From NCBI GenBank assembly GCA_035533015.1, contig DATLUQ010000013.1:1-64000 (forward strand): 64,000 nt of DNA, in the 5' to 3' direction. Origin of the DNA: Gemmatimonadaceae bacterium. Lineage in GTDB: Bacteria > Gemmatimonadota > Gemmatimonadetes > Gemmatimonadales > Gemmatimonadaceae. A model generated the notes under the pieces. It saw nothing but the letters and a program-made list of their open reading frames with translations. It was not told where the DNA came from and made no database searches. Made by a program: the position numbers and the translations under genes. Below, piece by piece: positions 11,202 through 29,782 of this stretch. Position 1 is the stretch's first letter; each line of letters begins with the position of its first letter.

Positions 11202-11352
11202 GAGGTGACGGGTAGGAGTGGCCCTGCCGCGAACCAGTGAACTTCGGCCCTCATGGAGGCCGGGTCAATGGGATAGGGCGCGCCCGCCTTGCCGCGGCGA
11301 CGGCGGCGGAGCGAACTTCGCAGGGCCCGTCGTTCCCCTCTCGCCCGCTGCC

Positions 11353-13989: not shown

Positions 13990-15693
13990 ATGCTTGACTC
14001 CCCCGCTTCTCTGGTCCTGACCGCGCTCGCGGCGGCGTTGGTCATCGTCATGATTCCCCGCCTCGTCGCGGCGGTCCGGATCGCGTTCGGTGTTCGCCGC
14101 CAGGAACGCGCGCGCCTCGCGGCGCGCGAACCCGACTTCGACAGCGCGCGGGCGTATCACGAACGACTCCCGGACGCGGAGACACGGCAAGCGTTGGACG
14201 ACCGCACCTGGCGCGACCTCGACCTCGACGACGTGTTCTGCCGGCTCGACTTCACGGTGAGCGAGCCCGGCCGTCAGCATCTCTACCACCTGCTGCGCAC
14301 GCCGCGGTTCACGGCGGAGCCGCTCGCACGACTCGACCGGGCGGCGCGCCGGCTCAGTGACCGCGACGGGGCGGATGAACGCGTGAGAACCCCCCTGCGT
14401 GCCCTCCGGGATCCTCGGGCCGCCCGCCTCGTGGACCTCTGCTTCGACGAGCTGCCACCCCGTCCGCGACTCTGGCTGCTCTTCCCGGTCCTGACGACGG
14501 CGTCCGTGATGTGCCTGGCCCTCGTTCCCGTCTGGCCGCGAGCGGCGGTGTGGTGGGTTGGCGTGTGCCTCGTGAATGTGCTCGTGCAGCTCGCCTATAA
14601 GCCGCGGGTGAAGCGGTTCGTGCCGGCGCTGCACGAGGTCCCGGCCCTCCTGCGCGCCGCGGGGCAACTCGCGCGGCTCGACCTCGATGAATTCGCCCCC
14701 GAGCGCGCGGTGCTCGCCGAGGGAGTGCGGAGCCTGCGTTCGTTGGTCCGCCCCACCCGGTGGCTCATGTTCGAGCCCGGCCAGGCCGGCGGCATGATGA
14801 GCGACGTTTCCGGCAGCGCGTACGAGTACGCGAACATGCTCTTTCTGCTCGACGTGAATGCCTTCGTGTTCACGGTCGAGATCCTGCGGGCGTCCCGCGA
14901 TCGCATGCGGGCGATGCTCGAAGCGATCGGCTACCTCGACGCGGCGCAGTCGGTGGCGACGTGGCGCGGCACGCTCTCACGCTGGTGCGTCCCGGAATTC
15001 ACGCCGCCACAAAAGGCCATGCACGTCGAAGGACTCGTCCATCCCCTGGTCACCGACGCGGTGCCGAACGCGCTGGAGATCGACGGCGCGAGCGTCCTCA
15101 TCAGCGGCTCGAACATGGCGGGCAAGACGACCTTCGTGCGAGCCTTGGGGGTGAACGCCGTACTGGCCCAGACGCTCTCCACCGTGTGCGCCGCGTCCTG
15201 GCAGGCCCCGTTCCTCCGCGTCCGCTCGTCCATCGGGCGGATGGACAGCGTCCTCGAGGGCAAGAGCTACTACCTGGCCGAGGTCGAGTCGATCCTCGCG
15301 CTCATCCGGGCCAAGGAGAGCGGCGACCAGCACCTGTTCCTGCTCGATGAGACGTTTCGCGGAACCAACACCACCGAGCGGGTGGCGGCGGCCTACGCCG
15401 TCCTGCGGCATCTGAATCGGGGCCGCGACCTCGTGGTGGTGGCCACGCACGATCTCGAGGTGCTCGATCTGCTCGACGGCGCGTTCGCGCCTCATCACTT
15501 TCGCGAGCAGATTGCGGGCGAGGCGTTGACCTTCGACTACCTGCTCCAACCGGGGCCGTCGTCCACCCGCAATGCCATCGCGCTCCTCCGGTTCATGCGG
15601 TACCCGGATGCCGTGGTTGCCGACGCGACCGCCCATCTTGACTGGCAGGCGCGGCGCGGCCCGCTCCCCGGCCGCGATCGCGAGCCTGGGTGA
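13990..15693 (+). CDS. Membrane-associated MutS-like ATPase
   Basis: The 567-residue protein has an N-terminal membrane helix (about 5-30), a pair of helices in the middle (about 158-200) and a C-terminal MutS domain V ATPase. The ATPase has Walker A GSNMAGKTTF (K379), the D453-E454 Walker B in LLDETFRGTNTTERVAA, and the MutS H-loop region VVVATHDLEVLDLLDG. It lacks the mismatch-recognition domain I, so it is not the classical repair MutS. It belongs to a little-studied group of membrane-tethered MutS homologues, and its role is unknown. It begins 21 nt after the GH38 gene in the same direction, so the two are probably cotranscribed. It is convergent with the ABC permease genes, with an 18-nt gap. 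Confidence 0.85.
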   Translation: MLDSPASLVLTALAAALVIVMIPRLVAAVRIAFGVRRQERARLAAREPDFDSARAYHERLPDAETRQALDDRTWRDLDLDDVFCRLDFTVSEPGRQHLYHLLRTPRFTAEPLARLDRAARRLSDRDGADERVRTPLRALRDPRAARLVDLCFDELPPRPRLWLLFPVLTTASVMCLALVPVWPRAAVWWVGVCLVNVLVQLAYKPRVKRFVPALHEVPALLRAAGQLARLDLDEFAPERAVLAEGVRSLRSLVRPTRWLMFEPGQAGGMMSDVSGSAYEYANMLFLLDVNAFVFTVEILRASRDRMRAMLEAIGYLDAAQSVATWRGTLSRWCVPEFTPPQKAMHVEGLVHPLVTDAVPNALEIDGASVLISGSNMAGKTTFVRALGVNAVLAQTLSTVCAASWQAPFLRVRSSIGRMDSVLEGKSYYLAEVESILALIRAKESGDQHLFLLDETFRGTNTTERVAAAYAVLRHLNRGRDLVVVATHDLEVLDLLDGAFAPHHFREQIAGEALTFDYLLQPGPSSTRNAIALLRFMRYPDAVVADATAHLDWQARRGPLPGRDREPG

Positions 15694-16590: not shown

Positions 16591-17576
16591 GGCGCGGCCC
16601 GCCGCGGGTCGAGGAGCGTGAGCGCGAGGTCGGCGGCGAGGTTGGCCGCAATCACCACGCCAGCGTACAGCATCGCGCACGCCATCACCACGGGGTAATC
16701 GCGCGACGCGATCGCGGTCAGCATCGCCGTTCCCATTCCGGGCCACGCGAACACCGCCTCCACGAACACCGAGCCCGCCACGAGGCCCGGCAGCGAGAGC
16801 GCGAGGAGCACGATCAGCGGGGGCAGCACGTTCCGCAGCACGTGGCGACCGAATACCCGGCTCGGGGCGGCGCCCTTGGCCCTCGCCGTGCGTACGAAAT
16901 CCAGTCGCATCACGTCGGCCACGCTGTTGCGCGCGTACCGCGCGATGCCGGCCGCGCCGATGGCCGCCAGAATGGAAACCGGAAGTACGGCATGGCGCAC
17001 GAGGTCGCGCGCCGCGGCCCAGCCGCTCAGTTCGGCCCCGGGGGTGTGCAGCCCGAACGCCGGCAGCCGCAGCCATTCCGGGAACCCCAGTAGGCTCGCG
17101 CCGTACGTGAACACCGCGACCAGGGCGAGTGCGATCCAGAAGGAGGGCATGGCAAAAACCGCCGTGGTGGCCACGGTCAGAGCGCGATCGACGGCGGTGC
17201 CGCGCCGCGCGCCCTGCACCATGCCGATCGGGACGCCGATCAGGAACGTCAACGCCAGCGACATGGCGCCGAGGCCCAGCGAGATCGGGGCCGCGCGGGC
17301 GAGAACCTGCGTCACCGGCTCGTGGCTGGCAAAGCTCTCCCCAAGGTCGCCCGTGAGCACGTCGCCGAGCCAGCGTGCATATTGCACGGGCCACGGCGCG
17401 TCGAGTCCGAACTGCTGGCGCAGCTGCGCCACGTCGGTCGGCGACGCGTTGGGGGGCACGAGCATCGTGGCCGGGTCGCCCGGCGCCAGCCGGACGAGCA
17501 CGAACACCAGGCTCACCACGAGCCAGATCAGCACCAGCGCGTCGCGTACGCGGCGCGCAACCGGGAGGGCGGACAC
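16587..17576 (-). CDS. Peptide/oligosaccharide ABC transporter permease, DppB-like
   Basis: The 329-residue permease has six predicted helices. The N-terminal helix precedes RLAPGDPATMLVPPNAS, the DppB/OppB signature, and FGLDAPWPVQYARWLGDVLTGDLGES is the matching periplasmic loop. The EAA motif is RAKGAAPSRVFGRHVLRNVLPP. It pairs with the DppC-like protein, which is translationally coupled to it. GTG start; no other suitable start precedes the first helix. Its start codon lies only 9 nt from the divergent start of the lipoprotein gene, so its promoter must sit inside that gene's coding region or upstream of it on the other side. Confidence 0.9.
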   Translation of the reverse strand: MSALPVARRVRDALVLIWLVVSLVFVLVRLAPGDPATMLVPPNASPTDVAQLRQQFGLDAPWPVQYARWLGDVLTGDLGESFASHEPVTQVLARAAPISLGLGAMSLALTFLIGVPIGMVQGARRGTAVDRALTVATTAVFAMPSFWIALALVAVFTYGASLLGFPEWLRLPAFGLHTPGAELSGWAAARDLVRHAVLPVSILAAIGAAGIARYARNSVADVMRLDFVRTARAKGAAPSRVFGRHVLRNVLPPLIVLLALSLPGLVAGSVFVEAVFAWPGMGTAMLTAIASRDYPVVMACAMLYAGVVIAANLAADLALTLLDPRRAAP

Positions 17577-17585
17577 GCGTTGATT

Positions 17586-19160
17586 ATGCGAGTGGCGCGG
17601 CGCGCGTCAATCGTGGCGACGGCGGCGGTGGTCGCGTGCGGGGCGCCCCCGCGGGCTCCGGGCGTGGTGGTCTACGCCTCGGGAACCGATCTCGAATCGG
17701 CCAATCCGCTCGTCACGATCCACCCGCTGTCGCGCCAGGTCCAGCGCTACGCGCTGTTCACCACGCTCGCCCGCTACGACTCGTCCCTCCGGCCGGTGCC
17801 CTACGCGGCGCGCGCGTGGACCTGGAGCGCCGACCGCCGCACGCTGCGCTTCGATCTCGAACCGGCGCTCCGCTGGGACGATGGCCGGCCGACCACGGCG
17901 CGCGACGTGGCGTTCACGCTGCTCGCCGCCAAGGACCCGGCCACCGGCTACCCGCGCGCCGGAGATCTCGCTGCGGTCGATACGGTGATCGCCGTCGACG
18001 ACTCCACGGTGGACGTGCGCTTCGACGCACCGCAGCCGGGGTTTCCGCTCGTGCTGTGCGAGCTGCCCATCCTGCCCGCGCACCTCCTGGCCGCGGTACC
18101 GAGGCGCGCGATGCGCACGGCGGCGTTCGACGTGGCGCCGGTGGGCAACGGTCCCTTCCGGTTCGTGTCGCGCGAGCCCGGCCAGCGATGGGTGTTCGCT
18201 CGAAACGACGACTTTCCCGCTGCACTCGGCGGGCCGCCCTTGCTCCGTGGGCTCGTGATCGCGGTGGTGGACGAGGCAACCACCAAGTTCGCCGGCCTGG
18301 CAAGCGGCGAGCTGGACGTGGCCGGCGTCTCGCCGAACATGGCCGCCCTCGTCCGGCGCGATCCGACGCTCCGCCTCGTCGACTATCCGATCCTGTTCGA
18401 GACCGGCATCGTGCTCAACACCCACAGGCCGCCGTTCAATGACGTGCGCGTGCGGCAGGCGATCTCCCTCGCCATCGACCGCGAGCGGATCGTGCAAGCG
18501 GCGCTCGATGGGTTCGGCCGGCCGGCGGCGGGACCCGTCGCCCCCGAGGTTCCGTACGCCGACACCACGCCCCCGGTGTTCGATCCGGCGCGGGCCGACT
18601 CGCTGCTCGATGCGGCCGGTTGGCGCCGCGGCGCCGACGGACGCCGGATGCGCGGAGGCCACGCATTCGCCTTCGACCTGCTCACCGTGGGCACGTCCGA
18701 CGACGCGCTGGAGCAGCTCGTCCAGGCGGATCTCGCGGCGCGGGGCATCACCATGGGCATCAGACAGATGGAATTGGGCGCGTTCCTCAGCGAGGCGCGC
18801 GCGCGGCCCAAGCGGTTCGACGCGCTCGTCACCGGCGTGTCGGGCGACCTCTCGCTGGCCTTCCTGCGCGCCATGTTCGAATCGCGGCAGGCCGGCGGGG
18901 CGCTGGACTACGCCGATTTTCACGAGCCGGCGCTCGATGCGGATTTCGCGCGCGCGTCGTTGGCGCGCACCGACAGCGCGCGCGGAGCGGCGTGGCGCAG
19001 CGTGCAAGCGGAGCTGGCTCGGCAGGAGCCCGTGGTCTGGCTGTACCATGCGAGGGGCGTTCAGGGTGTGACGCGACGGCTGCGCGGGGTCACGATGGAT
19101 CTGCGCGGCGAACTCGCCACGCTAGCGCGATGGCGCCTCGTGCCGAGAGATTCCGGGTGA
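17586..19160 (+). CDS. SBP_bac_5-type ABC solute-binding lipoprotein
   Basis: The 524-residue protein belongs to family 5 extracellular solute-binding proteins (DppA/OppA type). A short basic N-terminus and a hydrophobic run end in the lipobox VVAC (Cys18), so it is a lipoprotein. Family motifs follow: ANPLVTIHPLSRQVQRYALFTTLARYD, LEPALRWDDGRPTTARDVAFTL, VGNGPFRFV, and VRQAISLAIDRERIVQAALDGFGRPAAGPV. Substrates of this family include peptides, nickel and oligosaccharides. The neighbours (GH38, heparinase-like) suggest an oligosaccharide here, as inference. It is the only binding protein near the divergent permease pair. Its stop overlaps the heparinase-like start by 1 nt (TGATG). Confidence 0.9.
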   Translation: MRVARRASIVATAAVVACGAPPRAPGVVVYASGTDLESANPLVTIHPLSRQVQRYALFTTLARYDSSLRPVPYAARAWTWSADRRTLRFDLEPALRWDDGRPTTARDVAFTLLAAKDPATGYPRAGDLAAVDTVIAVDDSTVDVRFDAPQPGFPLVLCELPILPAHLLAAVPRRAMRTAAFDVAPVGNGPFRFVSREPGQRWVFARNDDFPAALGGPPLLRGLVIAVVDEATTKFAGLASGELDVAGVSPNMAALVRRDPTLRLVDYPILFETGIVLNTHRPPFNDVRVRQAISLAIDRERIVQAALDGFGRPAAGPVAPEVPYADTTPPVFDPARADSLLDAAGWRRGADGRRMRGGHAFAFDLLTVGTSDDALEQLVQADLAARGITMGIRQMELGAFLSEARARPKRFDALVTGVSGDLSLAFLRAMFESRQAGGALDYADFHEPALDADFARASLARTDSARGAAWRSVQAELARQEPVVWLYHARGVQGVTRRLRGVTMDLRGELATLARWRLVPRDSG

Positions 19161-21997
19161 TGGGTCTTCTCGTCGATTCCGAATTGCTGGCCGCGCGCCG
19201 CCTCGTGGCGGCCAGCGGCCTCGCACCGCTGGCCGACTCGCTGGCCGCTGATCTCGAGCGCCCGCTCGCGGCGCAGCTGCGTGTGCCGCGCGACAAGGCG
19301 CTGCTCTCGCGCGCCGGCGGCTATTGTGAACGCGACGGTTCGCCGCTCACCTTCGACCCGTGGACGCCGCACGAACACCACTGTCCTGCCTGCGGACTCG
19401 CGCACCGCGGCCCACTCCACGACCGGTGGTGGTTGTATCCATATCAGCTCTGGCTGGCCGAACGCGCGGTGCACGGCGCCGCGCTCTATGCGGTGCGCGG
19501 CGACGAACGCCACGCGCGATTCTCCGCCGACATCCTGTCGCAATACGCCGACGCGTATCTGCAATATCCCAATCGCGACAACGTCCTCGGCCCCACGCGC
19601 CCGTTCTTCAGCACGTACCTCGAATCGATCTGGCTGCTGCAGCTGTGCGTGGCGCTCGATCTGCTCGAGACCGCGGGATGGGCCGCGCCCGGTGCTGCGG
19701 TGCGCGAGCGGCTCATCGAGCCCAGTGTCGCGCTGATTGCCGGCTACGACGAGGGGGCGTCCAATCGCCAGGTGTGGAACAACGCGGCAATGCTCGCTGG
19801 CCGTCTGCTCCTGGGGCAGGAGTACGCGGTCGACCCGATCGTCTTCGGGCCGTCAGGCTTGCTGGCGCACCTCGAGGACGGCCTGCTGGACGACGGCACC
19901 TGGTACGAGGGCGAGAATTACCACCAGTTCGCGCACCGCGGCCTCTGGTACGGCGTGCAACTGGCGGAACGCGCCGGCTCTCGGCTGCCGGCCCACGTCG
20001 TGCCGCGCTTCGACCGCGGCTTCTCCGCGACGTTCGCCACGGCCCTTCCCGACCTCACGCTGCCTTCGCGCAAGGATTCTCAATACGCAATTTCGCTCCG
20101 CCAATGGCGATTCGCGGAGGTGTGCGAACTCGGGCTGGCCCGCGGTGACGATCCCGTGCTGGTCGCGACGCTCGCCGCGCTCTACGATCCCGCTGCCGCC
20201 GCGGCCACCGGCGACACGGGGCGCTCCACGTCGAGCGCCGAAGCGGAACGCAATGGCCGCGGCGTGCGCCTGACCCGGGCCGATCTGGGCTGGAAATCAC
20301 TGCTTTTCGCTCGTGAGCATCTTCCCCCCCGCCGGCGGCTCGGACTGGAGAGCGTCCTACTCCACGGCCAGGGCATCGCCGTATTCCGACGAGAGCACGC
20401 CCAGGTGTTCGCCGCGCTCGACTACGGACAATCGGGCGGTGGGCACGGCCACCCCGATCGCCTGAACGTGCTGTTCTCGGTGGGCACCACGCGATGGCTC
20501 GACGACATGGGGACGGGGTCGTACGTGGATCCATCGCTCCATTGGTACCGCAGCACGCTGGCCCATAATGCGCCGTTCGTGGATGGCCACTCCCAGTGGC
20601 GCGTGGACGGCGTGCTCGAAGCCTTCGACGAACAGGACCAGGTGGGCTGGGCGCGCGCGCGGGTGTACGTCTGGCCCGACGTGCTTGCCGAGCGCACGCT
20701 CGTCGTCATGCCCGAGTACTTCATCGACCGGTTGCGGTGGCGCGCCGGCCATGCCGCGACGGTGGCGCTGCCCGTGCATTTCGACGCAGAGCTGGGGGGC
20801 GAGATCAAGAACGCCCGCGGACGATTCGCCGGTGCCGGTGGCCTCGAAGACGGCGACCAGTTCGTCACCACCGAACGCGTGCAACGCGCCGATGCGGGCG
20901 CCCGCGTGCTTCTCACCCCGCGCCGCGCCGACAGTGATCAACTTCGGTGCCTCGCGCGCGCCGGGACACCCACGACCTGGTACACGCTGTCGGGGCCCGG
21001 CCAGCCGCCGGCCGCGCGCCGCCGCTTCCTCGTGATCGAATCCACGAGCGCGCCCGTCGGCGAGGTGTGCATGGTGTGGGCCTGGTCGCCCGAAATCGAA
21101 TCGGTGGAATGGATCGGCGACACGGTGCTCGTGCACTTTCGCGATGGGTCGCGTCACCGCCACGAGCCCGCGGTGGACGGGTGGCACGTCGAGATCGACC
21201 AGCAAGGCGCGTCGCACCACGTGGCGCTCGGCGGCATCATTCCCGAAGACGAATCACTCGAGGCAACCGCGGAACGAATGGGCACGCCGATTCCCGCCGA
21301 GGCGCGTGCGGCCGAAGCCGACGCCACGGTGGAACGCCCGCCCGACGATCACAACGGCGTACTCCTTTCGCCAGCCAAGTTCCAAGCCGGGTGGTGGGCG
21401 GACGCCACGCCGAGCGAACGGGCGCGGTATGCCGTGTACCACCTGGGCGCGTCCACCTACCGCCGGTCGGAGGAAACGTGGGAGGAGGCCGGCTCTCCCG
21501 TGGCCCGTGTGGCGGTTGCCGCCACGCCGAAGTCGCTGATCGTCGACATGCAGGTCACGACCCCGAGTCCGCGGTTCGTACCCGCCGACGCGGTCAATCC
21601 GTACGATAACGAAGCGCCCGACATCAACGGCGACGGCGTGCAACTCTACCTGCAGGCCAACGACAATGGCGGCGCGTGGGTGCTCGTGCCCGAGGTGCCC
21701 GGCCGGCCTGGCACCGTACGCGCCCGTCCGATCGACGGGTGGGGCAGCCTGAAGCTGTCCCGCGCGACGTGGCGCCGCACGAGCCACGGCTACGAATTGC
21801 GCGCTGAGGTGGCCCTGCGGGAGCCGCTGGAGGTGGGACACCAGTTCGCCCTCGACGTGCTGATCAATGAGACCGCGCCGGGCCGCGAACGGCGGCGAGG
21901 CCAGCTGATTCTGAGCGGGCCCGATGGGGAATTCGTGTATCTGCGCGGCGACCGCCACGATCCGTCGCGGCTCCTTCGCTTCACCATCGTCACGTGA
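19160..21997 (+). CDS. Heparinase II/III-like protein with C-terminal carbohydrate-binding-type domain
   Basis: The 945-residue protein has no signal peptide. An N-terminal segment has a possible zinc knuckle (YCERDG then HHCPACG). An alpha-helical toroid region follows (about 90-400) with NAAMLAGRLLLG and WYEGENYHQFAHRG. The heparinase II/III beta-domain begins at GQSGGGHGHPDRLN, with LDDMGTGSY and TLAHNAPFVDGHSQ, where the conserved His and Tyr residues of these lyases occur. The last about 190 residues form a separate beta-sandwich (DINGDGVQLYLQ, WGSLKLSRATW, GYELRAEVAL) like CBM9/DOMON-type domains. It may cleave uronate-containing glycans by beta-elimination, but the substrate is not readable. 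ATG start overlaps the lipoprotein stop by 1 nt. Confidence 0.82.
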   Translation: MGLLVDSELLAARRLVAASGLAPLADSLAADLERPLAAQLRVPRDKALLSRAGGYCERDGSPLTFDPWTPHEHHCPACGLAHRGPLHDRWWLYPYQLWLAERAVHGAALYAVRGDERHARFSADILSQYADAYLQYPNRDNVLGPTRPFFSTYLESIWLLQLCVALDLLETAGWAAPGAAVRERLIEPSVALIAGYDEGASNRQVWNNAAMLAGRLLLGQEYAVDPIVFGPSGLLAHLEDGLLDDGTWYEGENYHQFAHRGLWYGVQLAERAGSRLPAHVVPRFDRGFSATFATALPDLTLPSRKDSQYAISLRQWRFAEVCELGLARGDDPVLVATLAALYDPAAAAATGDTGRSTSSAEAERNGRGVRLTRADLGWKSLLFAREHLPPRRRLGLESVLLHGQGIAVFRREHAQVFAALDYGQSGGGHGHPDRLNVLFSVGTTRWLDDMGTGSYVDPSLHWYRSTLAHNAPFVDGHSQWRVDGVLEAFDEQDQVGWARARVYVWPDVLAERTLVVMPEYFIDRLRWRAGHAATVALPVHFDAELGGEIKNARGRFAGAGGLEDGDQFVTTERVQRADAGARVLLTPRRADSDQLRCLARAGTPTTWYTLSGPGQPPAARRRFLVIESTSAPVGEVCMVWAWSPEIESVEWIGDTVLVHFRDGSRHRHEPAVDGWHVEIDQQGASHHVALGGIIPEDESLEATAERMGTPIPAEARAAEADATVERPPDDHNGVLLSPAKFQAGWWADATPSERARYAVYHLGASTYRRSEETWEEAGSPVARVAVAATPKSLIVDMQVTTPSPRFVPADAVNPYDNEAPDINGDGVQLYLQANDNGGAWVLVPEVPGRPGTVRARPIDGWGSLKLSRATWRRTSHGYELRAEVALREPLEVGHQFALDVLINETAPGRERRRGQLILSGPDGEFVYLRGDRHDPSRLLRFTIVT

Positions 21998-22740
21998 CTC
22001 ACTCGCGATTGGCGCAGATCCGGGTCGTCCTCTACGAGCCGCAGGATCCGGTGAATATCGCCGCGACCGTTCGCGCGATGAAGAACATGGGCCTCGGCAC
22101 GCTGCACCTCGTGCGCCCGGTGGAATACGACCCCCACCGCCTGGAAGGCATCGCCCACGGCACGCGCGACCTGATCGACCGCATCGTGACGTTCCAGGAT
22201 TTCGATGCCGCGATCGCCGGCTGCGTGCGCGTGGTGGGGTTCACGGCACGCCGCCGCGCCGCGCGCTGGGCCGTGACCACCCCGCGCGACGAAGCCGCGG
22301 CCACCCTCGGTGCGGTGGAGCAGGGGCCCGTAGCCTACGTGTTCGGCCGCGAGGACAGCGGCCTTCCCAATGACGTGCTCGACCGGGTGCACGCCGCGGT
22401 CATGATCCCCACCACCGACCACGCCTCGCTCAACCTCGCGCAGGCGGTGCTCGTGGGGCTCTACGAACTGCACCTCGCGGCCGCCGACGCCACGCGCGCC
22501 GTGGCGCCGTCCCGCAAGGCCGCGCCCCCGCCCTCGGCCGAGCAGTTCGAGCAGTACTTCGCCGATCTCGAGCGGTCCCTCGACGGCATCGAATTCTTCA
22601 AGACGCGTGTTTCGGAGCACATCATGCGCACGCTGCGGTCGCTGACCTACCGCGCGGCGCCCGATGCCCGGGAACTGTCCCTCATCCGCGCCATGGCGCT
22701 CGAGGTCCTGAACTACCTTCGCCGCACCGATCGGGCTTGA
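21994..22740 (+). CDS. TrmJ/SpoU-type RNA 2'-O-methyltransferase
   Basis: The 248-residue SPOUT-class enzyme transfers methyl from S-adenosylmethionine to RNA ribose. Its N-terminal VVLYEPQDPVNIAATVRAMKNMGL is the first SpoU/TrmH motif, with the catalytic Arg and Asn. YVFGREDSGLPNDVLDRVHA and MIPTTDHASLNLAQAVLVGLYEL are motifs 2 and 3 that form the trefoil knot. A helical C-terminal extension (about 180-248) resembles TrmJ, which methylates position 32 of tRNA; exact target not established. GTG start at 21994 overlaps the heparinase-like stop (GTGA). The link to a glycan operon is probably readthrough of a housekeeping gene. Confidence 0.9.
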   Translation: MTHSRLAQIRVVLYEPQDPVNIAATVRAMKNMGLGTLHLVRPVEYDPHRLEGIAHGTRDLIDRIVTFQDFDAAIAGCVRVVGFTARRRAARWAVTTPRDEAAATLGAVEQGPVAYVFGREDSGLPNDVLDRVHAAVMIPTTDHASLNLAQAVLVGLYELHLAAADATRAVAPSRKAAPPPSAEQFEQYFADLERSLDGIEFFKTRVSEHIMRTLRSLTYRAAPDARELSLIRAMALEVLNYLRRTDRA

Positions 22741-22771: not shown

Positions 22772-24091
22772 ATGGTATTCAAACGATTTTTCGATCGCAG
22801 CGCCGCCGCCCCTCCCGCCGAGGTGGGCGACGCGTCCCCCGAGGAGTCCGACGACGGGGCGACGGAACCCGAAGACGACAGCGGCCTGCCCGAAGAGGCC
22901 CCTGATCGTTCGTGGGCGGAGCGCGCCGCCGCGGTCATCGCCGGCGGCGCGTCCACGGGCAGCAAGCGCACGGCGGCGCTCTACGGCACCGACGCGAGCG
23001 AAGCGCCCACGCACTTCATTCATGCGTCCGGGTGCCGGCTGGTCGCCACCGACGGTGATACCTACGTCGACTGCTCCATGGCCCTCGGCGCCGTCGCACT
23101 GGGGTACGCGGAGCCCAACGTGACCCGCGCCGTGCTCGATGCGATCGGTGGGGGCCACGTCTCGGCCCTCAACAGCACGTTCGAGGTCGCGGTGGCCGAG
23201 CGGCTGTGCGACGTCGTTCCTTGTGCCGAGCGTGTGCGGTTCATGAAGACGGGCGCCGAAGCGACGTCGGCGGCCGTCCGCATCGCGCGCGCCTACACCG
23301 GGCGCGATGTCGTGATCGCATCGGGATATCTCGGCTGGCACGACTGGGCGAGCGAAGGCACGGGGGTGCCGGAGGGTGCGCGGCGCGACGTCATCCGCGT
23401 ACCGTACGACGACACCGCGGCACTCGAGACGGCCGTGCGCACGGCCGGCGACCGCCTGGCGGCGATCATTCTCGAACCTGTCGTGGAACGCATGCCGTCC
23501 ACCACCTGGACAGCCCGTGCCCGCGAACTGTGCACGCAGCGTGGCGCGGCGCTCATCTTCGACGAGATGAAAACCGGATTTCGGCTGGCGCCCGGCGGAT
23601 ACCAGGAAGTCGCGAACGTCACCCCCGATCTCGCCACTTTCGGCAAGGCGCTCGCCAACGGGTTTCCGCTCTCGGCGGTGTGCGGCCACAAGGATATCAT
23701 GGAGGCTGCGGCCAGGACTTGGATCTCATCCACGCTGGCCGGCGAAGCGAGCGCGCTCGCGGCGGCCATGACCGTGCTCGAGTGGCACGCCCAGGCCGAC
23801 ATCTGCGACACACTGGCCAAGAACGGAGCCGAGATGCGACGCGTGGTGTCGGCGGCGGTCGCGGCCAGCGGCATTCCCGGGGTGTCGGTGGAGGGACTCG
23901 ACCCGATGTGGTTTCTGCGCTTCGAAGACGCCGCCGTGGAGGCCGAGTTCCTGCGGCGCGCCGCAGCGCACGGCGTCCTGTTCAAACGCGGTGCCTACAA
24001 CTACGCGTCGATGGCCCACGACGAGCAGGCGATCCAGGAAATCGAACACGCAGCCAGCGCCTCGTTCGTCGAGATTCTCGAGGAGACGTGA
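22772..24091 (+). CDS. Class III aminotransferase, glutamate-1-semialdehyde mutase-like
   Basis: The 439-residue PLP enzyme is of fold type I. The PLP Lys is K292 in TFGKALANGFPLSA. Upstream are FMKTGAEATSAAVRIARAYTGRD (PLP phosphate site), YLGWHDWASEGTGVP and LIFDEMKTGFRLAPGG with the Asp that binds the pyridine nitrogen. It resembles glutamate-1-semialdehyde 2,1-aminomutase and the related sugar or acyl aminotransferases. The first about 50 residues are an unusual acidic, low-complexity extension (DASPEESDDGATEPEDDSG) not found in HemL. Two amidohydrolase-fold genes follow with 4-nt overlaps, so it is probably a dedicated pathway enzyme, not the heme enzyme. ATG start 31 nt after the methyltransferase. 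Confidence 0.85.
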   Translation: MVFKRFFDRSAAAPPAEVGDASPEESDDGATEPEDDSGLPEEAPDRSWAERAAAVIAGGASTGSKRTAALYGTDASEAPTHFIHASGCRLVATDGDTYVDCSMALGAVALGYAEPNVTRAVLDAIGGGHVSALNSTFEVAVAERLCDVVPCAERVRFMKTGAEATSAAVRIARAYTGRDVVIASGYLGWHDWASEGTGVPEGARRDVIRVPYDDTAALETAVRTAGDRLAAIILEPVVERMPSTTWTARARELCTQRGAALIFDEMKTGFRLAPGGYQEVANVTPDLATFGKALANGFPLSAVCGHKDIMEAAARTWISSTLAGEASALAAAMTVLEWHAQADICDTLAKNGAEMRRVVSAAVAASGIPGVSVEGLDPMWFLRFEDAAVEAEFLRRAAAHGVLFKRGAYNYASMAHDEQAIQEIEHAASASFVEILEET

Positions 24092-24945
24092 GCCCCGTTT
24101 CGGCGCCTCCGTTGGGCGGCCCGGAGCCGCTGATCGACGTGCACGCGCACTTCCACCATGCCGGCGGTCCGCGCGCCGACTGGGCGGCCGTGAACGACGC
24201 CCGGTTCCGCGCCGGGGCGCGCATCGGCATCACGTATCACGTGGCGTCGGTCCTCGGCAGCTGGGGGTTCTCGTCGCCAATCTATTTCCCGTCGCCGCGT
24301 GACGTCACCGCCGGCAATGATGCCATGCTCGCCATCGCCGAGCGCGAACCGGCGTGCGTGCGTGCGTATGTGACGGTGAATCCCAATCACACGGCCCACG
24401 CCGTCCAGGAGATCGCGCGGTGCGCCGCGCGTGGAGCCGTGGGTCTCAAACTCGCCGCCAGCCGCCGCGCCGACGACCCGTTGCTCGATCCGGTGTGCGA
24501 AGCGGCCGCGCGACACGGGTTGCCGGTGCTGCATCATGTCTGGCAGCATCGGACGCGCGACTGGCCCACGCAGGAGATTTCCGACGGCGTGGACCTCGCC
24601 GCGTTGGCCCGCCGCCACGTGGGCGTGTCGTTCATCCTCGCCCATATCGGCGGGGGCGGGGATTATCTGCACACCCTTCCGGCCATCGCCGACACGCCCA
24701 ACATCCTGGTCGACGTCTCGGGCAGCGGGGTCGATCGTGGAATGCTCGACGAGGCCATCCTGCAATTGGGCGCCGAGCGCATTCTCTGGGGATGCGACGT
24801 TACCATGGAAACCGGGATCGCCAAGCTCATGGGATTCGAGGCCATTCGCCTCGACGCGGGCCAGCGCCGGCTCATCCGCTACGGCAACGCGGTGCGGATA
24901 TTCCCGGCGGGCAGCTTTCCCCTGGCCGAGCCGGCACCCGCATGA
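24088..24945 (+). CDS. Amidohydrolase-family protein with intact metal site
   Basis: The 285-residue protein is a TIM-barrel amidohydrolase of the amidohydrolase_2 type (as in ACMSD-like decarboxylases and lactonases). Metal ligands are readable in order: HxH in LIDVHAHFHH, a later Lys-containing VGLKLAASRR, His in VLHHVWQHR, His in FILAHIGGGG and the Asp in ILWGCDVTMETG. The substrate is unknown. GTG start at 24088 overlaps the aminotransferase stop (GTGA), and its own stop overlaps the next start (ATGA). It contrasts with the following paralogue, which has the same fold but has lost these residues. Confidence 0.83.
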   Translation: MSPVSAPPLGGPEPLIDVHAHFHHAGGPRADWAAVNDARFRAGARIGITYHVASVLGSWGFSSPIYFPSPRDVTAGNDAMLAIAEREPACVRAYVTVNPNHTAHAVQEIARCAARGAVGLKLAASRRADDPLLDPVCEAAARHGLPVLHHVWQHRTRDWPTQEISDGVDLAALARRHVGVSFILAHIGGGGDYLHTLPAIADTPNILVDVSGSGVDRGMLDEAILQLGAERILWGCDVTMETGIAKLMGFEAIRLDAGQRRLIRYGNAVRIFPAGSFPLAEPAPA

Positions 24946-25703
24946 TCGACGTCAATGCGCTCATCGGATCGTACCCGTTCCGATACGTGCCGCACCCCGA
25001 TCCCGATGTCCTGACGCGCGTGCTGGAACGCGAAGGACTGAGCGGAGCGTGGGTGGGCCATCTGCCGAGCGCGTTCTATAGGGATCCGTCGGCCGGAAAC
25101 GCGCAGTTGTACACGGCGCTGGCGCCGTATCAGCCCACCCTGCGCCCGGTGCCAGCCATCCGTCCCGATTGGCCAAAATGGGAGCAGGCCGTGCGCACCG
25201 CGGTAAAGGCGGGCGCTCCTGCCGTGCGCGCCTACCCTACCATCTGGCAATTCGGTCCGCACGATCCACGGATGAGGGAGCTTGCCCAGGCGTGCGGCGA
25301 CGCTCGTTTGGCGCTCGTGCTCACCGTCCGGTTCGAGGACCTGCGCCAGCGCCATCCGCTCGATGCCGCCGGCGACCTCACCGCCGCTGCCATCCGCGAC
25401 CTGGCGCGCTGCGGGCCCGGGGTGCGGCTCGTCGTGGCGGCCGCCGGCCGCGAGATGATCGAAGAGGTGCACTGGGGTCTCACCCCAGAAGAGCAACGCC
25501 GCGTGGTGTGGGACATCTCGTGGATCTGGGGTCCCCCGGAGGATCATCTGGCCAGGCTGTTTCGAACGATCGGCGCCGACCGGTTCGTGTACGGCACGCA
25601 GTGGCCCCTGCGCCTCACGCAGGCGCCGCGCGGGAATCTCGCGCTCCTGCCCGACGATGTCGCGGGGAAACCGCTTGCGGATCCCGATCGACTGTTCGTG
25701 TGA
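24942..25703 (+). CDS. Amidohydrolase-like protein lacking metal ligands
   Basis: The 253-residue protein looks like a shortened relative of the preceding amidohydrolase: MIDVNALIGSYPFRY in place of IDVHAHF, VRAYPTIWQFGPHDP in place of the Lys strand, RLVVAAAGREM where the second His should be, and FVYGTQWPLRLTQA where the catalytic Asp strand (GSDxP) should be. So HxH, the later His and the Asp all appear to be absent. The DVNxxIG...PFR start is seen in a group of uncharacterised amidohydrolase-like proteins. It could be a non-catalytic partner of the upstream protein. ATG start overlaps the upstream stop by 4 nt, which argues for a fixed stoichiometry of the two products. Function not known. 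Confidence 0.75.
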   Translation: MIDVNALIGSYPFRYVPHPDPDVLTRVLEREGLSGAWVGHLPSAFYRDPSAGNAQLYTALAPYQPTLRPVPAIRPDWPKWEQAVRTAVKAGAPAVRAYPTIWQFGPHDPRMRELAQACGDARLALVLTVRFEDLRQRHPLDAAGDLTAAAIRDLARCGPGVRLVVAAAGREMIEEVHWGLTPEEQRRVVWDISWIWGPPEDHLARLFRTIGADRFVYGTQWPLRLTQAPRGNLALLPDDVAGKPLADPDRLFV

Positions 25704-25896: not shown

Positions 25897-26583
25897 ATGA
25901 CCAAGCGCAGGAAGTGGACCGCCATCCCGGGGCTGATCGCGCTCGCCACCGGGGCGGTGATGCTCTCCGCATACAGCGGCGCGTCGTCGTCGCAGAACAG
26001 TTCGCCCACGCAGCCCATCCCGTTCCAGCACGCGGTGCACGTCGGGAAACTGGGCATCAACTGCGTCTACTGTCATTACACGGCCAACAAGTCGCCCGAT
26101 CCCGGATTCCCCGCCGTGTCGACGTGCATGGGGTGCCACTCGATCATCGGGCCCGACCGGCCGGCCAGCGACCTCGGGCCGGCGCGCAAGAGCGCCGGCA
26201 TCCAGAAGCTGTGGGACTACGCCGGATATCCCGCCAAGCTCGCCAGCGCCAAGCCCATCCCGTGGGTGCGCATCCACAAGCTGCCCGAATACGTCCACTT
26301 TCCGCACATGCGCCACGTCAACGCAGGCGTCACCTGCCAGACCTGCCACGGGCCCATCCAGACCGAGGCCAAGGTGTACCAGTATGCCTCGCTCAACATG
26401 GGGTGGTGTGTGAGTTGCCACGTGAACGGCTACGACCCGGCCCAGGGCGAGGCGATGACGTCGATGGTCGCCGATGCACAGGGCCGCGCGGTCCTGCCGG
26501 CCGGCTACAAGATGTCCGCCGCGGCCACGCCCGATTCGGCGCGCACGAAGGCGCGTTACGACTGTTCCGTCTGCCACTACTGA
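25897..26583 (+). CDS. actA: Alternative complex III subunit A, pentahaem cytochrome c
   Basis: The 228-residue protein has an N-terminal membrane anchor (PGLIALATGAVMLSAY) and five CxxCH haem sites: CVYCH, CMGCH, CQTCH, CVSCH and CSVCH. This fits the five-haem ActA of ACIII, which is bound to the periplasmic side and passes electrons from the Fe-S subunit to the cytochrome c or oxidase. Several free His residues (HAVHVGK, HFPHMRH) can serve as distal ligands. ATG start; it is the first gene of actABCDEF and follows the CRP/FNR-type palindrome. Confidence 0.93.
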   Translation: MTKRRKWTAIPGLIALATGAVMLSAYSGASSSQNSSPTQPIPFQHAVHVGKLGINCVYCHYTANKSPDPGFPAVSTCMGCHSIIGPDRPASDLGPARKSAGIQKLWDYAGYPAKLASAKPIPWVRIHKLPEYVHFPHMRHVNAGVTCQTCHGPIQTEAKVYQYASLNMGWCVSCHVNGYDPAQGEAMTSMVADAQGRAVLPAGYKMSAAATPDSARTKARYDCSVCHY

Positions 26584-26671
26584 TGACCGCCCCGTTGATG
26601 CGTGGCTCCCGCTCGCTGATCTGCATCCTGACGCGCGCCCGGCGCGCCGTTCGCCGTTCGAGGACAACTTC

Positions 26672-29600
26672 ATGAGCAAGGCTTCGGAACCGAAGGGGAA
26701 GGGCGTCAAGCGCCGGGATTTCTTGAAAATCCTTGGGGTGAGTGGCGCCGCCGTCGGTGCTGCCGGCTGTAGCCCTGAGAATGCCGGCAAGCTGATTCCG
26801 TATCTCGTGTCGCCGGATCAGACGGTGCCGGGGGTCGCCACGTACTACGCCACCACATGTCGTGAGTGCGCCGCCGCGTGCGGCGTCATTGCCGTGACGC
26901 TCAACGGGCGCACCATCAAACTCGAGGGTAATCCCGACCATCCTACCAGTCGCGGCGCGATCTGCGCTCGGGGCCAGTCGGCGCTCCAGGCACTCTACAA
27001 CCCCGACCGCTTGCGCACGCCGCTCGTCAAGAAGAGCGGCGTATGGACGGCCATCTCGTGGGACGATGCCCTCACCCTGGTGAGCCAGAAGCTGGGGGAG
27101 GCCAGGAGCCGCAACGCGGCGGGCAGCGCGGTCTTCCTGAATCAGCACGAGAGCGGCAGTTTCCCCGACTTCGTCGATCAGTGGCTGGCGGCGTTCGGCA
27201 TGAAGCCCCACGTGCGCGTGGACTTCGAGGCCGACCAGGCGGCCATGGAAGCCAACCGCCGCGCGTACGGCGTGTCATGGCCGCGGCTGGCGTTCACGGC
27301 TGCGCGGCTCGTCGTGTCGTTCGGCGCCGACTTCCTCGACGGCTGGGGCGCCTCCGTGCCGCAGCAACTCGACTTTGCCGACGCCAGGGCCAACATCGCC
27401 ACGGCGCCGCGCGCCGTGTACATCGGCCCCCGGCGCACACTCACGGGGCTCAACTCGGACCAGTGGATTCCCTGCAAACCGGGCTCCGAGCTGGCCATCG
27501 CGCAGGCCCTTCAGGGCAAGTTGTCGCCGTCCCAGGCCGCAGAGGCGAGTGGCGTGAGCGCCGACGTGATCGGCGCGCTCGCCAAAGAAGTCGCCTCGGC
27601 CACGCCGAGCCTCATCGTCTCGGGCGTACGCACCGGCAATGCGCTCGACCTCGCACTGGCGGTGGCCGACCTCAACAAGTCACTGGGCAACGTGGGCAAG
27701 ACGGTTCTGCCCGCCGAGCCGGTTACCGCGTTCGACGGCATCTCGCGCTACACGGAGCTGGCCGATGCCGTGGAGGATATGCGCGGCGGCAACGTCCCGT
27801 TGGCATTCGTGCGCGGCACGAACCCGGCGTACTATCTGCCCGCGTCGCTCCATTTCGCCGAGGCGTTCGCCAAGGTGCCGTTCAAGGTGGCGTTCGCCAC
27901 GCAGCCCGACGAAACGGTGGAACTGTGCGACCTCGTGCTGCCCGACCTGCACTCGCTCGAGAGCTGGGGCGACGCGCAGCCGGTGAAGGGCACCCTCGGG
28001 TTGCAGCAGCCGACGATGGACCCGGTGTTCACCGGCACGCGGGGCGCCGGCGACGTGATGCTCGTGCTGGCCCAGAAGGATCCCACGGTGGCGGCCAGGT
28101 TCCCGCAGAAAGACTACCGGTCGTGGCTCATGGCGCATTTCGTCGGGGGCCCCGCGGCCTTCGCGGCGGGATTGCCCAAGGGCATCTCGGCGGGCACGAT
28201 GCCCGTGCGCGCGACGCCCGCCGCAACCGCGGCGGCCAACGCTCCCGCGCTCGATTCCGCGTCGGGAGACTTCTATCTGATCACGTACCCGCATCCGCTA
28301 CTCGGTGACGGACGCGGCGCCAACCGCCCGTGGCTGCAGGAACTTCCCGACCCGGTGGCCAAGATCGTGTGGAGTTCGTGGGTCGAGATCCATCCCGAGA
28401 CCGCCACGCGGCTCGGCATCGAGCGCGGCGACATCGTCGAGGTGAAAACGGCGGACGGGACGGTGAAGGCGCCGGCGTATCTGTACCTCGGCGTGCGGCT
28501 CGACACGATCGCCATTCCGCTGGGGCAGGGGCATCGCTCGGCCACGCCGATCGCGGCCTGGGATCCGACACACCAGGATGCGACGCGGGACATCCAGTGG
28601 GGGTACGGGCGGTACGCGCGCAACGTGGGCGTGAATCCGTTCGATCTCATGCCGGGCGCTTCCGACGCGGCCGGTGGATTCGTGTGGACGGCGACCAAGG
28701 CCTCGCTCACCAGGACGGGTGACAGCGAGGTCATCCCCTCCACCGAAGGATCGGCGCGCCAACACGGTCGCGGAATCGCGCAGGCGATCTCGATCACCGA
28801 CCTGCTCAGCGGCAAGGCCGAGGGTCCCACCGAAGTGCCGCTGCCCGGGGATGTGTCGCACGACTACCTGCCCGGCATGCGCGCGCCCGTCGCGGCCGAC
28901 GCGCAGGGAGAGCTCGGCGCGCCGACGGCGGCCGATTCCGGCACGCACCTCGGGATGTACGATCCCAAGAACCCGCTCGGCATGGCCAAGCGGCGCTGGG
29001 CGATGACGATCGACCTGGCGCGATGCACCGGCTGCTCGGCGTGCGTCACGGCCTGCTATGCCGAGAACAACATTCCCACGGTGGGCGCGCACTGGCAGAA
29101 CGCCACGGTCTACGCGGTGCAGAAGACCGGATATAACGTGGTCCGCGGCCGCGAGATGAATTGGATTCGCATCGAGCGGTACTTCGAGGGTGCCGATGAC
29201 GCCAAGTTCGGCGAGGAGTTCGAGGGCCGCGTCGTGCCGATGCTGTGCCAGCAGTGCGGCAACGCGCCGTGCGAGCCGGTGTGCCCGGTCTTCGCGACGT
29301 ATCACTCGCCGGACGGGCTCAACATCCAGGTCTACAATCGCTGCGTGGGCACGCGCTACTGCTCCAACAACTGCCCGTACAAGGTGCGCTACTTCAATTG
29401 GTTCGGGTACGGCGAGAAGGATCGCCGGCAGTACGCGTTCCCCGACCCGCTGAACTGGCAACTCAATCCCGAGGTCACGGTGCGCGGCAAGGGTGTGATG
29501 GAGAAATGCACGTTCTGCGTGCAGCGCATCCGCGCCGCCGAAAGCCGCGCCACGCTGGAGCATCGCGAGCTCATCCCCGATGAGTTCACGTCGGCGTGCG

Positions 29601-29782
29601 CGGCCAGTTGTCCATCCCGTGCCATCACGTTCGGCGACGCGGCGGACGAGCGCTGGTCGGTGAACCGGCTGATCGAGGACAGACGCGCCTATACCGTGTT
29701 CAAGGAAATCAACACCTACCCCGCGGTGGTCTACTTGAAGAAGGTCAACCATCCCTCGCCGGCAACGGCGGGTAACGCTTAA
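26672..29782 (+). CDS. actB: Alternative complex III subunit B, Fe-S protein with molybdopterin-fold domain
   Basis: The 1036-residue protein starts with a twin-arginine signal (KRRDFLK at 13-19, then a hydrophobic run to Cys33), so it is exported folded by Tat. The N-terminal half has the molybdopterin-oxidoreductase fold, with a CRECAAACG motif and GAICARGQ that resemble the Cys set around a molybdoenzyme 4Fe-4S cluster. The C-terminal half has the ferredoxin-type domain: CTGCSACVTACY, CQQCGNAPCEPVCP, CVGTRYCSNNCPY and CTFCVQR...CAASCPSRA. ActB is the quinol-side electron wire of ACIII. ATG at 26672 is chosen because the Tat signal begins there; longer frames upstream are not family-like. 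It lies 88 nt after actA. Confidence 0.93.
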   Translation: MSKASEPKGKGVKRRDFLKILGVSGAAVGAAGCSPENAGKLIPYLVSPDQTVPGVATYYATTCRECAAACGVIAVTLNGRTIKLEGNPDHPTSRGAICARGQSALQALYNPDRLRTPLVKKSGVWTAISWDDALTLVSQKLGEARSRNAAGSAVFLNQHESGSFPDFVDQWLAAFGMKPHVRVDFEADQAAMEANRRAYGVSWPRLAFTAARLVVSFGADFLDGWGASVPQQLDFADARANIATAPRAVYIGPRRTLTGLNSDQWIPCKPGSELAIAQALQGKLSPSQAAEASGVSADVIGALAKEVASATPSLIVSGVRTGNALDLALAVADLNKSLGNVGKTVLPAEPVTAFDGISRYTELADAVEDMRGGNVPLAFVRGTNPAYYLPASLHFAEAFAKVPFKVAFATQPDETVELCDLVLPDLHSLESWGDAQPVKGTLGLQQPTMDPVFTGTRGAGDVMLVLAQKDPTVAARFPQKDYRSWLMAHFVGGPAAFAAGLPKGISAGTMPVRATPAATAAANAPALDSASGDFYLITYPHPLLGDGRGANRPWLQELPDPVAKIVWSSWVEIHPETATRLGIERGDIVEVKTADGTVKAPAYLYLGVRLDTIAIPLGQGHRSATPIAAWDPTHQDATRDIQWGYGRYARNVGVNPFDLMPGASDAAGGFVWTATKASLTRTGDSEVIPSTEGSARQHGRGIAQAISITDLLSGKAEGPTEVPLPGDVSHDYLPGMRAPVAADAQGELGAPTAADSGTHLGMYDPKNPLGMAKRRWAMTIDLARCTGCSACVTACYAENNIPTVGAHWQNATVYAVQKTGYNVVRGREMNWIRIERYFEGADDAKFGEEFEGRVVPMLCQQCGNAPCEPVCPVFATYHSPDGLNIQVYNRCVGTRYCSNNCPYKVRYFNWFGYGEKDRRQYAFPDPLNWQLNPEVTVRGKGVMEKCTFCVQRIRAAESRATLEHRELIPDEFTSACAASCPSRAITFGDAADERWSVNRLIEDRRAYTVFKEINTYPAVVYLKKVNHPSPATAGNA

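Follow-up and report, generated by a model that had tools for sequence, protein, structure and literature searches.

The window analysed here is a stretch of 64,000 nucleotides from a Gemmatimonadaceae bacterium (assembly GCA_035533015.1, contig DATLUQ010000013.1, positions 1 to 64,000, forward strand), in which three overlapping genes encode a class III aminotransferase (AT) and two amidohydrolase-type proteins, AH1 and AH2. Our analysis makes it reasonably likely that AH1 and AH2 are the halves of an obligate two-barrel enzyme, with AH1 as the catalytic barrel and AH2 as a metal-free partner with a pocket of its own, working in the metabolism of carbohydrate-derived acids or amino acids. We infer that the two proteins work together because their genes are linked where they are split and fused, in both orders, where they are not, a pattern classically read as a mark of cooperating domains. 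What we propose about complex formation, stoichiometry, the role of AH2, the substrate and the pathway is drawn from sequence, predicted folds and gene context. All three genes are present in a single copy in the source genome (66 contigs, 3.03 Mb; the window lies on contig 13), and literature searches found no description of the AH1-AH2 pair.

The assignment of AH1 to the amidohydrolases is straightforward. It matches the Pfam family Amidohydro_2 (PF04909) with 74 bits (E 2.3e-20) against a cut-off of 26.4, and the full set of metal ligands noticed in the initial annotation is indeed in place, with H19 and H21 (HxH), H150 (beta-5), H186 (beta-6) and D237 (beta-8), together with K121, being invariant in 44 orthologues. 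Its AlphaFold2 (AF2) model has a mean predicted local distance difference test score (pLDDT) of 92.7, and the closest folds are those of ACMSD, gamma-resorcylate decarboxylase and 3cjp (Z 22 to 24).

AH2 presents the opposite picture. With 23.4 bits (E 5.9e-5), it falls below the cut-off of the same Pfam family, and it reads DVNAL where AH1 has DVHAH, VVAAAGREM where AH1 has ILAHIGGGG, and VYGTQWP where AH1 has LWGCDVT, just as had been read from the window, while the beta-5 His is likewise lost (Thr). None of the 51 aligned AH2 orthologues has the canonical metal ligand set; at the ligand columns they carry N, T, S, A or C (position 5), W, F, L or Y (position 7), T (position 128), A (position 168), and W, Q, H, M or G (position 220). 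The AF2 model of AH2 (pLDDT 95.5) is nevertheless an amidohydrolase-type TIM barrel, superimposing on 2dvt with a Z score of 20.4 and a root mean square deviation of 2.8 over 240 residues; like AH1, it has its best matches in the ACMSD and resorcylate decarboxylase group, and both models are confident.

The AH2 gene is also far from drifting. Among the 51 orthologues 39 columns are invariant, including P12, R14, R30, W37, D48, F131-E132-D133, R135-Q136-R137-H138, D141, R152, R156, E175, E184, D191, W196-G-P-P (196-199) and R224, and R96 is near-invariant. In amidohydrolase TIM barrels, the active site lies on the side that follows the C-terminal ends of the strands. Columns of AH2 that are at least 98% conserved are concentrated there, with 30 of 90 in the beta-alpha (catalytic-face) segments and 19 of 163 elsewhere (p 4e-5), numbers that are approximate, as the segments after the C-terminal strand ends were set by hand from the DSSP string of the AF2 model; conserved columns of AH1 follow the same trend. 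Between the window and two relatives, the nonsynonymous divergence (dN, NG86) is 0.12 to 0.16 for AH2 and 0.13 to 0.17 for AH1, the synonymous divergence (dS) is 0.80 to 0.87, and the dN/dS of AH2, about 0.15 to 0.18, is similar to that of AH1. By these sequence comparisons, AH2 lost its ligands long ago and is still under strong selection.

A survey of 249 Gemmatimonadota genomes detected 94 with AH2 and 93 with AH1, every one of them in Gemmatimonadales, the order of the window; three additional, weak matches to AH2 came from outside this order. In 90 of the 94 genomes, AH1 immediately precedes AH2 on the same strand, so that AH2 is not a gene that mostly occurs alone, a finding that would have spoken against the pairing proposed initially. 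In two of the four remaining genomes AH2 sits at a contig end (G267 and G273), and in a third a full AH2 lies on another contig with an AH2 fragment beside AH1 (G037). These four genomes aside, AH1 and AH2 are present or absent together. The 4-nt overlaps that the initial annotation had described for the three genes of the window hold to the base in coordinates, frames and both junctions (GTGA and ATGA); in relatives such overlaps are frequent, not universal. Translational coupling may fix the stoichiometry of AH1 and AH2.

The pair extends well beyond this order in the sample covered here (one phylum and plasmid records), and this wider occurrence is the strongest evidence that the two barrels belong together. 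When plasmids were searched by tblastn, AH2 matched five haloarchaeal records and AH1 matched the same five, each through one annotated protein of about 560 amino acids with an AH1-like half first and an AH2-like half second. These proteins (e.g., WP_224270999.1) are annotated merely as amidohydrolase family proteins and are about 30% identical to the window pair, which they join into a single polypeptide carrying the metal set only in its first half. The second halves lack ligands and have equivalents of R96, E132, D133, H138, E175 and D191; the motif ED-x-R-x-RHP, common to Gemmatimonadales AH2 and nearly all haloarchaeal halves, is found in 5 of 6, with EDKRQHHS as the remaining variant. 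In two of the haloarchaeal loci, a class III aminotransferase 35 to 36% identical to AT is encoded within 10 kb.

The opposite order occurs as well. The haloarchaeon Halomontanus has a second type of fusion with the ligand-less half first, and a protein from another Gemmatimonadota lineage (G176, L124:6927-8582) is 30% identical to it over 556 amino acids, its full length. On the Halomontanus rarus plasmid (L122), the two double-barrel amidohydrolases of opposite domain order are encoded side by side, in a neighborhood that also encodes a class III aminotransferase and one more, single amidohydrolase. As two genes with the ligand-less one first, the pair is found in the actinomycete Nonomuraea gerenzanensis, with a 4-nt overlap, and in the clostridium Subdoligranulum variabile, where its neighbors are genes for a sugar ABC transporter and for NagA- and NagB-like proteins. 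When the Subdoligranulum and Nonomuraea partners were used to search plasmids, no pair other than that of Halomontanus emerged, and AH2 was not found in the phage collection. Across these arrangements, all 24 active partners have the H, H, H, H, D set plus a Lys at the beta-4 position, and all 24 ligand-less partners have lost the set, keeping at most one isolated ligand-type residue, with an Arg in place of the beta-4 Lys.

In full trees, all ligand-less halves fall on one side of a branch (support 99/96; 97/94). When the ligand columns and their neighbors are masked, a common group remains for the partners from Gemmatimonadales, haloarchaea and Nonomuraea (97/82), and the reverse-order group and Subdoligranulum are placed elsewhere with weak support. 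We do not claim a single origin of all ligand-less partners, since the grouping is lost upon masking; on these alignments, one ancient origin would include at most the Gemmatimonadales, haloarchaeal and Nonomuraea group.

The nearest precedent that we know for such a pair is AibH1H2, the hydroxylase of 2-aminoisobutyrate monooxygenase from Rhodococcus wratislaviensis, which likewise combines a catalytic and a noncatalytic PF04909 barrel that are encoded together, and whose chains match AH2 at Z 18 to 19. The two barrels form a heterotetramer. Its AibH1 subunit retains a metal site, which is mononuclear, and the site of AibH2 is a dinuclear Mn/Fe one that begins with Asp-x-His (PMC7782822, PMC10401708). 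While AibH1H2 was purified as a heterotetramer, the pairing of AH1 and AH2 is known from genetic linkage and fusions, and while the noncatalytic AibH1 still binds metal, AH2 has no ligands and AH1 has the usual HxH-H-H-D set. An AibH2-like dinuclear oxygenase (ARO) was considered for AH1 and rejected: the catalytic ligands of AibH2 are Asp-x-His, His, Glu, Asp and His (PMC7782822), and AH1, with H19 for the first Asp and H186 at beta-6, does not match this set. No Rieske or ferredoxin partner was seen among the annotated neighbors in the window and two related loci (L073, L074), which were scanned only in part. ACMSD and the gamma-resorcylate and 2,3-dihydroxybenzoate decarboxylases of PF04909 share both the closest folds and the mononuclear ligand set with AH1, but they are homo-oligomers with a metal in every subunit, and AH1 (285 amino acids) is shorter and only about 17 to 21% identical to them. 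In the ACMSD dimer, the adjacent subunit contributes the essential Arg239 to the active site (PMC11650718).

We propose a model in which AH1 would hold a mononuclear metal site and do the chemistry, most likely hydrolyzing or hydrating a carboxylated substrate of sugar origin or cleaving a C-C bond in it non-oxidatively. AH2 has lost its metal site but retains the predicted barrel fold and, on the catalytic face, a conserved pocket rich in arginines and acids. It would most likely pack against AH1 and supply substrate-binding or gating residues, comparable to Arg239 in ACMSD, binding or ordering part of the substrate while AH1 provides the metal. The initial annotation had left the choice between a heteromeric enzyme and a regulatory subunit. 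The former is well supported by the conserved adjacency and by the fusions in both orders, whereas a regulatory role is less likely than that of a structural or substrate-binding half, as the conservation in AH2 falls on the expected site of the pocket.

The main rival is a separate, metal-independent activity of AH2, which would then carry out an adjacent reaction on what AH1 uses or makes, with channeling between the two, so that fusion and adjacency would reflect consecutive steps. Consecutive enzymes also get fused, PF04909 has characterized members without a cofactor (PMC10811679), and the catalytic face of AH2 is dense with invariant polar residues, some of them common across domains of life. 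Nevertheless, we consider this unlikely, as every partner has lost the beta-8 Asp, which serves throughout the superfamily as both metal ligand and proton carrier, and as the Gemmatimonadales and haloarchaeal partners differ from the reverse-order group in their other pocket residues, which would be odd for a shared activity. We give even less credence to AH2 being a mere scaffold for the assembly or stability of AH1 that has no role in the active site, as proposed for AibH1. The lost ligands and the precedent of an essential yet noncatalytic subunit (PMC7782822; reviewed in PMC12141560) would suit such a role, but a scaffold predicts a conserved interface, wherever on AH2 this may lie, and conservation in AH2 prefers the catalytic face.

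It is improbable, though still conceivable, that AH2 is a true metalloenzyme with a non-canonical site formed by conserved carboxylates and H138; such alternative ligands were named in the initial annotation as a finding that would count against its reading. E132, D133, H138, E175, E184 and D191 are invariant and, for all but E184, on or near the catalytic face, and the haloarchaeal halves have equivalents of E132, D133, H138, E175 and D191; however, all five canonical ligand positions are lost, the conserved acids lie amid many conserved arginines, favoring salt bridges or ligand binding, and the motif is absent from the reverse-order partners. That AH2 is a decaying duplicate, soon to be lost and only traveling with its neighbors, is hardly credible. 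It would explain the complete loss of ligands and the weak Pfam score, but it is contradicted by the low dN and dN/dS, the 39 invariant columns, the archaeal fusions and the fact that about 90 genomes retain AH2 together with AH1.

Several observations weigh against an obligate two-barrel enzyme. The cluster of conserved residues on the catalytic face of AH2 fits an independent metal-free enzyme equally well, and a stable gene order within one bacterial order is partly due to descent. In genome G215, the only true separation in the survey, AH1 and AH2 are both kept about 32 kb apart on the same contig (contig 10; L114, L115). Furthermore, ED-x-R-x-RHP is missing from the reverse-order fusions and from the Subdoligranulum and Nonomuraea partners, in which the role of the ligand-less barrel may differ.

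The aminotransferase is a looser member of the unit than AH1 and AH2. It belongs to class III by its Pfam profile and its PLP (pyridoxal phosphate) lysine, K292, which is invariant in 41 orthologues along with other class III residues, and its closest solved structures are glutamate-1-semialdehyde aminomutase (GSAM) and C-6' aminoglycoside aminotransferases. AT shares fold and PLP lysine with the GSAM-like enzymes, and its best NCBIfam models are of this kind, but it scores far below their cut-offs (241 bits for the best model, with 486 required). An assignment as HemL was rejected, and AT is probably not a heme pathway enzyme, because its score is far below every curated GSAM cut-off. The unusual acidic N-terminal extension is real, comprising residues 1 to about 45 (window 22772-22910), with about 40 acid-rich residues after an MVFKRFF-type start; it is limited to a clade, being present in 16 of the 36 scorable orthologues. 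We discarded it as a general feature of AT and do not count it as part of the unit, because many AT orthologues lack it. Similarly, the view of AT as part of the unit stands only as a usual association, since AT adjoins AH1 in 17 of 19 loci from more distant members of the order (the exceptions, L104 and L105, have AH1 without an adjoining AT), and the gene next to the Nonomuraea pair encodes a DegT-type aminotransferase instead of a class III enzyme; the idea of an obligate aminotransferase is weakened by these cases. In our model, AT would act directly before or after the AH1-AH2 step in the same pathway.

Upstream of AT, genes for a solute-binding protein (SBP), a heparinase- and alginate lyase-like protein and a TrmJ-like methyltransferase form an almost gapless run (Table 1).

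Table 1. Conserved gene run and gene junctions in the window
Feature	Position	Strand	Description
Extracellular solute-binding protein family 5	17322..19160	+	Pfam SBP_bac_5, E 4.7e-75; first gene in the conserved run
Heparinase II/III- and PL17 alginate lyase-like protein	19160..21997	+	Pfam Hepar_II_III_C, E 4e-14; PL17 matches
TrmJ-like RNA methyltransferase	21994..22740	+	TIGR00050; inside the run, 4-nt overlap with the heparinase-like gene
AT	22772..24091	+	Class III, glutamate-1-semialdehyde aminomutase-like PLP aminotransferase; Pfam Aminotran_3, E 9e-44
GTGA	24088..24091	+	AT stop overlapping the GTG start of AH1 (sequence)
AH1	24088..24945	+	Catalytic-type amidohydrolase, PF04909; H19, H21, H150, H186, D237, K121; 285 aa
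ATGA	24942..24945	+	AH1 stop overlapping the ATG start of AH2 (sequence)
AH2	24942..25703	+	Amidohydrolase paralogue without metal ligands; invariant residues of its own pocket: R14, E132, D133, R135, Q136, R137, H138, D141, D191, WGPP 196-199, R224, and near-invariant R96

The true start of the SBP gene probably lies inside the annotated frame. The order of the heparinase-like gene is conserved along with the AH1-AH2 pair, and loci with enough flanking DNA show the recurring order SBP, (GHMP kinase), heparinase-like, (TrmJ), AT, AH1, AH2, (DHDPS-family aldolase, unknown protein Y). Among the 19 loci from more distant members of the order, 15 have the GHMP kinase, which resembles D-glycero-D-manno-heptose 7-phosphate kinase, and 11 have the DHDPS-family gene; the former has one match elsewhere in the genome of the window (38% identical), and the latter has none there. 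TrmJ was rejected as a pathway member, being missing from about a dozen loci in which the rest is intact (L033, L063, L098, L100-L102, L109-L113 and others), and it is probably a passenger because it comes and goes among relatives. At the natural operon break in G215, the AT, TrmJ, heparinase-like and SBP genes are beside AH1 and a cytochrome gene is beside AH2.

Carbohydrate-related genes accompany the pair in four lineages, encoding alginate lyase/heparinase-like proteins, heptose kinase-like proteins, aldolases, sulfatases, an aldose epimerase, NagA/NagB and sugar transport, along with aminotransferases. This context suggests substrates that come from carbohydrates and contain an amino or keto group. 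In Gemmatimonadales, the pathway may also use the SBP and the alginate lyase/heparinase-like protein and, in relatives, the heptose kinase-like GHMP kinase and the DHDPS-family aldolase.

Some further observations concern these loci and the rest of the window. Protein Y, of about 400 amino acids, is conserved downstream of the DHDPS-family gene (L074:9715-10929, L073:9735-10262); no family in Pfam or NCBIfam and no credible structure in the PDB matches it, and its start (HPFGKASGQLS...VLKTVI) bears a faint likeness to the dihydroorotate dehydrogenase barrel. Two records titled Candidatus Kuenenia and Proteobacteria (L062 and L075) contain a typical Gemmatimonadales locus, which probably means that the records are mistitled or come from mixed bins. 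Downstream of AH2, positions 25897-29782 encode a multiheme protein of the cytochrome c7 type and a large protein that is iron-sulfur/molybdopterin-like, an arrangement reminiscent of how an alternative complex III operon begins. At 13990-15693, the window encodes a 567-amino-acid protein in which Pfam found the MutS domain V ATPase and no other MutS domain, and this gene adjoins one for a GH38 alpha-mannosidase-like protein (11218-13968).

More tentatively than the two-barrel enzyme itself, we suggest that the pair may represent a new family of two-barrel amidohydrolases in bacteria and archaea, existing in split form and in both fusion orders, in which the metal-less barrel is the substrate-binding half and which, with an aminotransferase, belongs to a new pathway for a carbohydrate-derived acid. 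Since annotation pipelines label both kinds of gene as amidohydrolase family protein, an obligate two-part enzyme would be hidden from view, and assays using AH1 alone would fail or mislead. The pair would also be a case in which one of two paralogous barrels has taken over catalysis from the other. Because fusions in either order exist in nature, the role of the metal-free barrel can be tested directly, and the same question applies to the noncatalytic subunit of AibH1H2.

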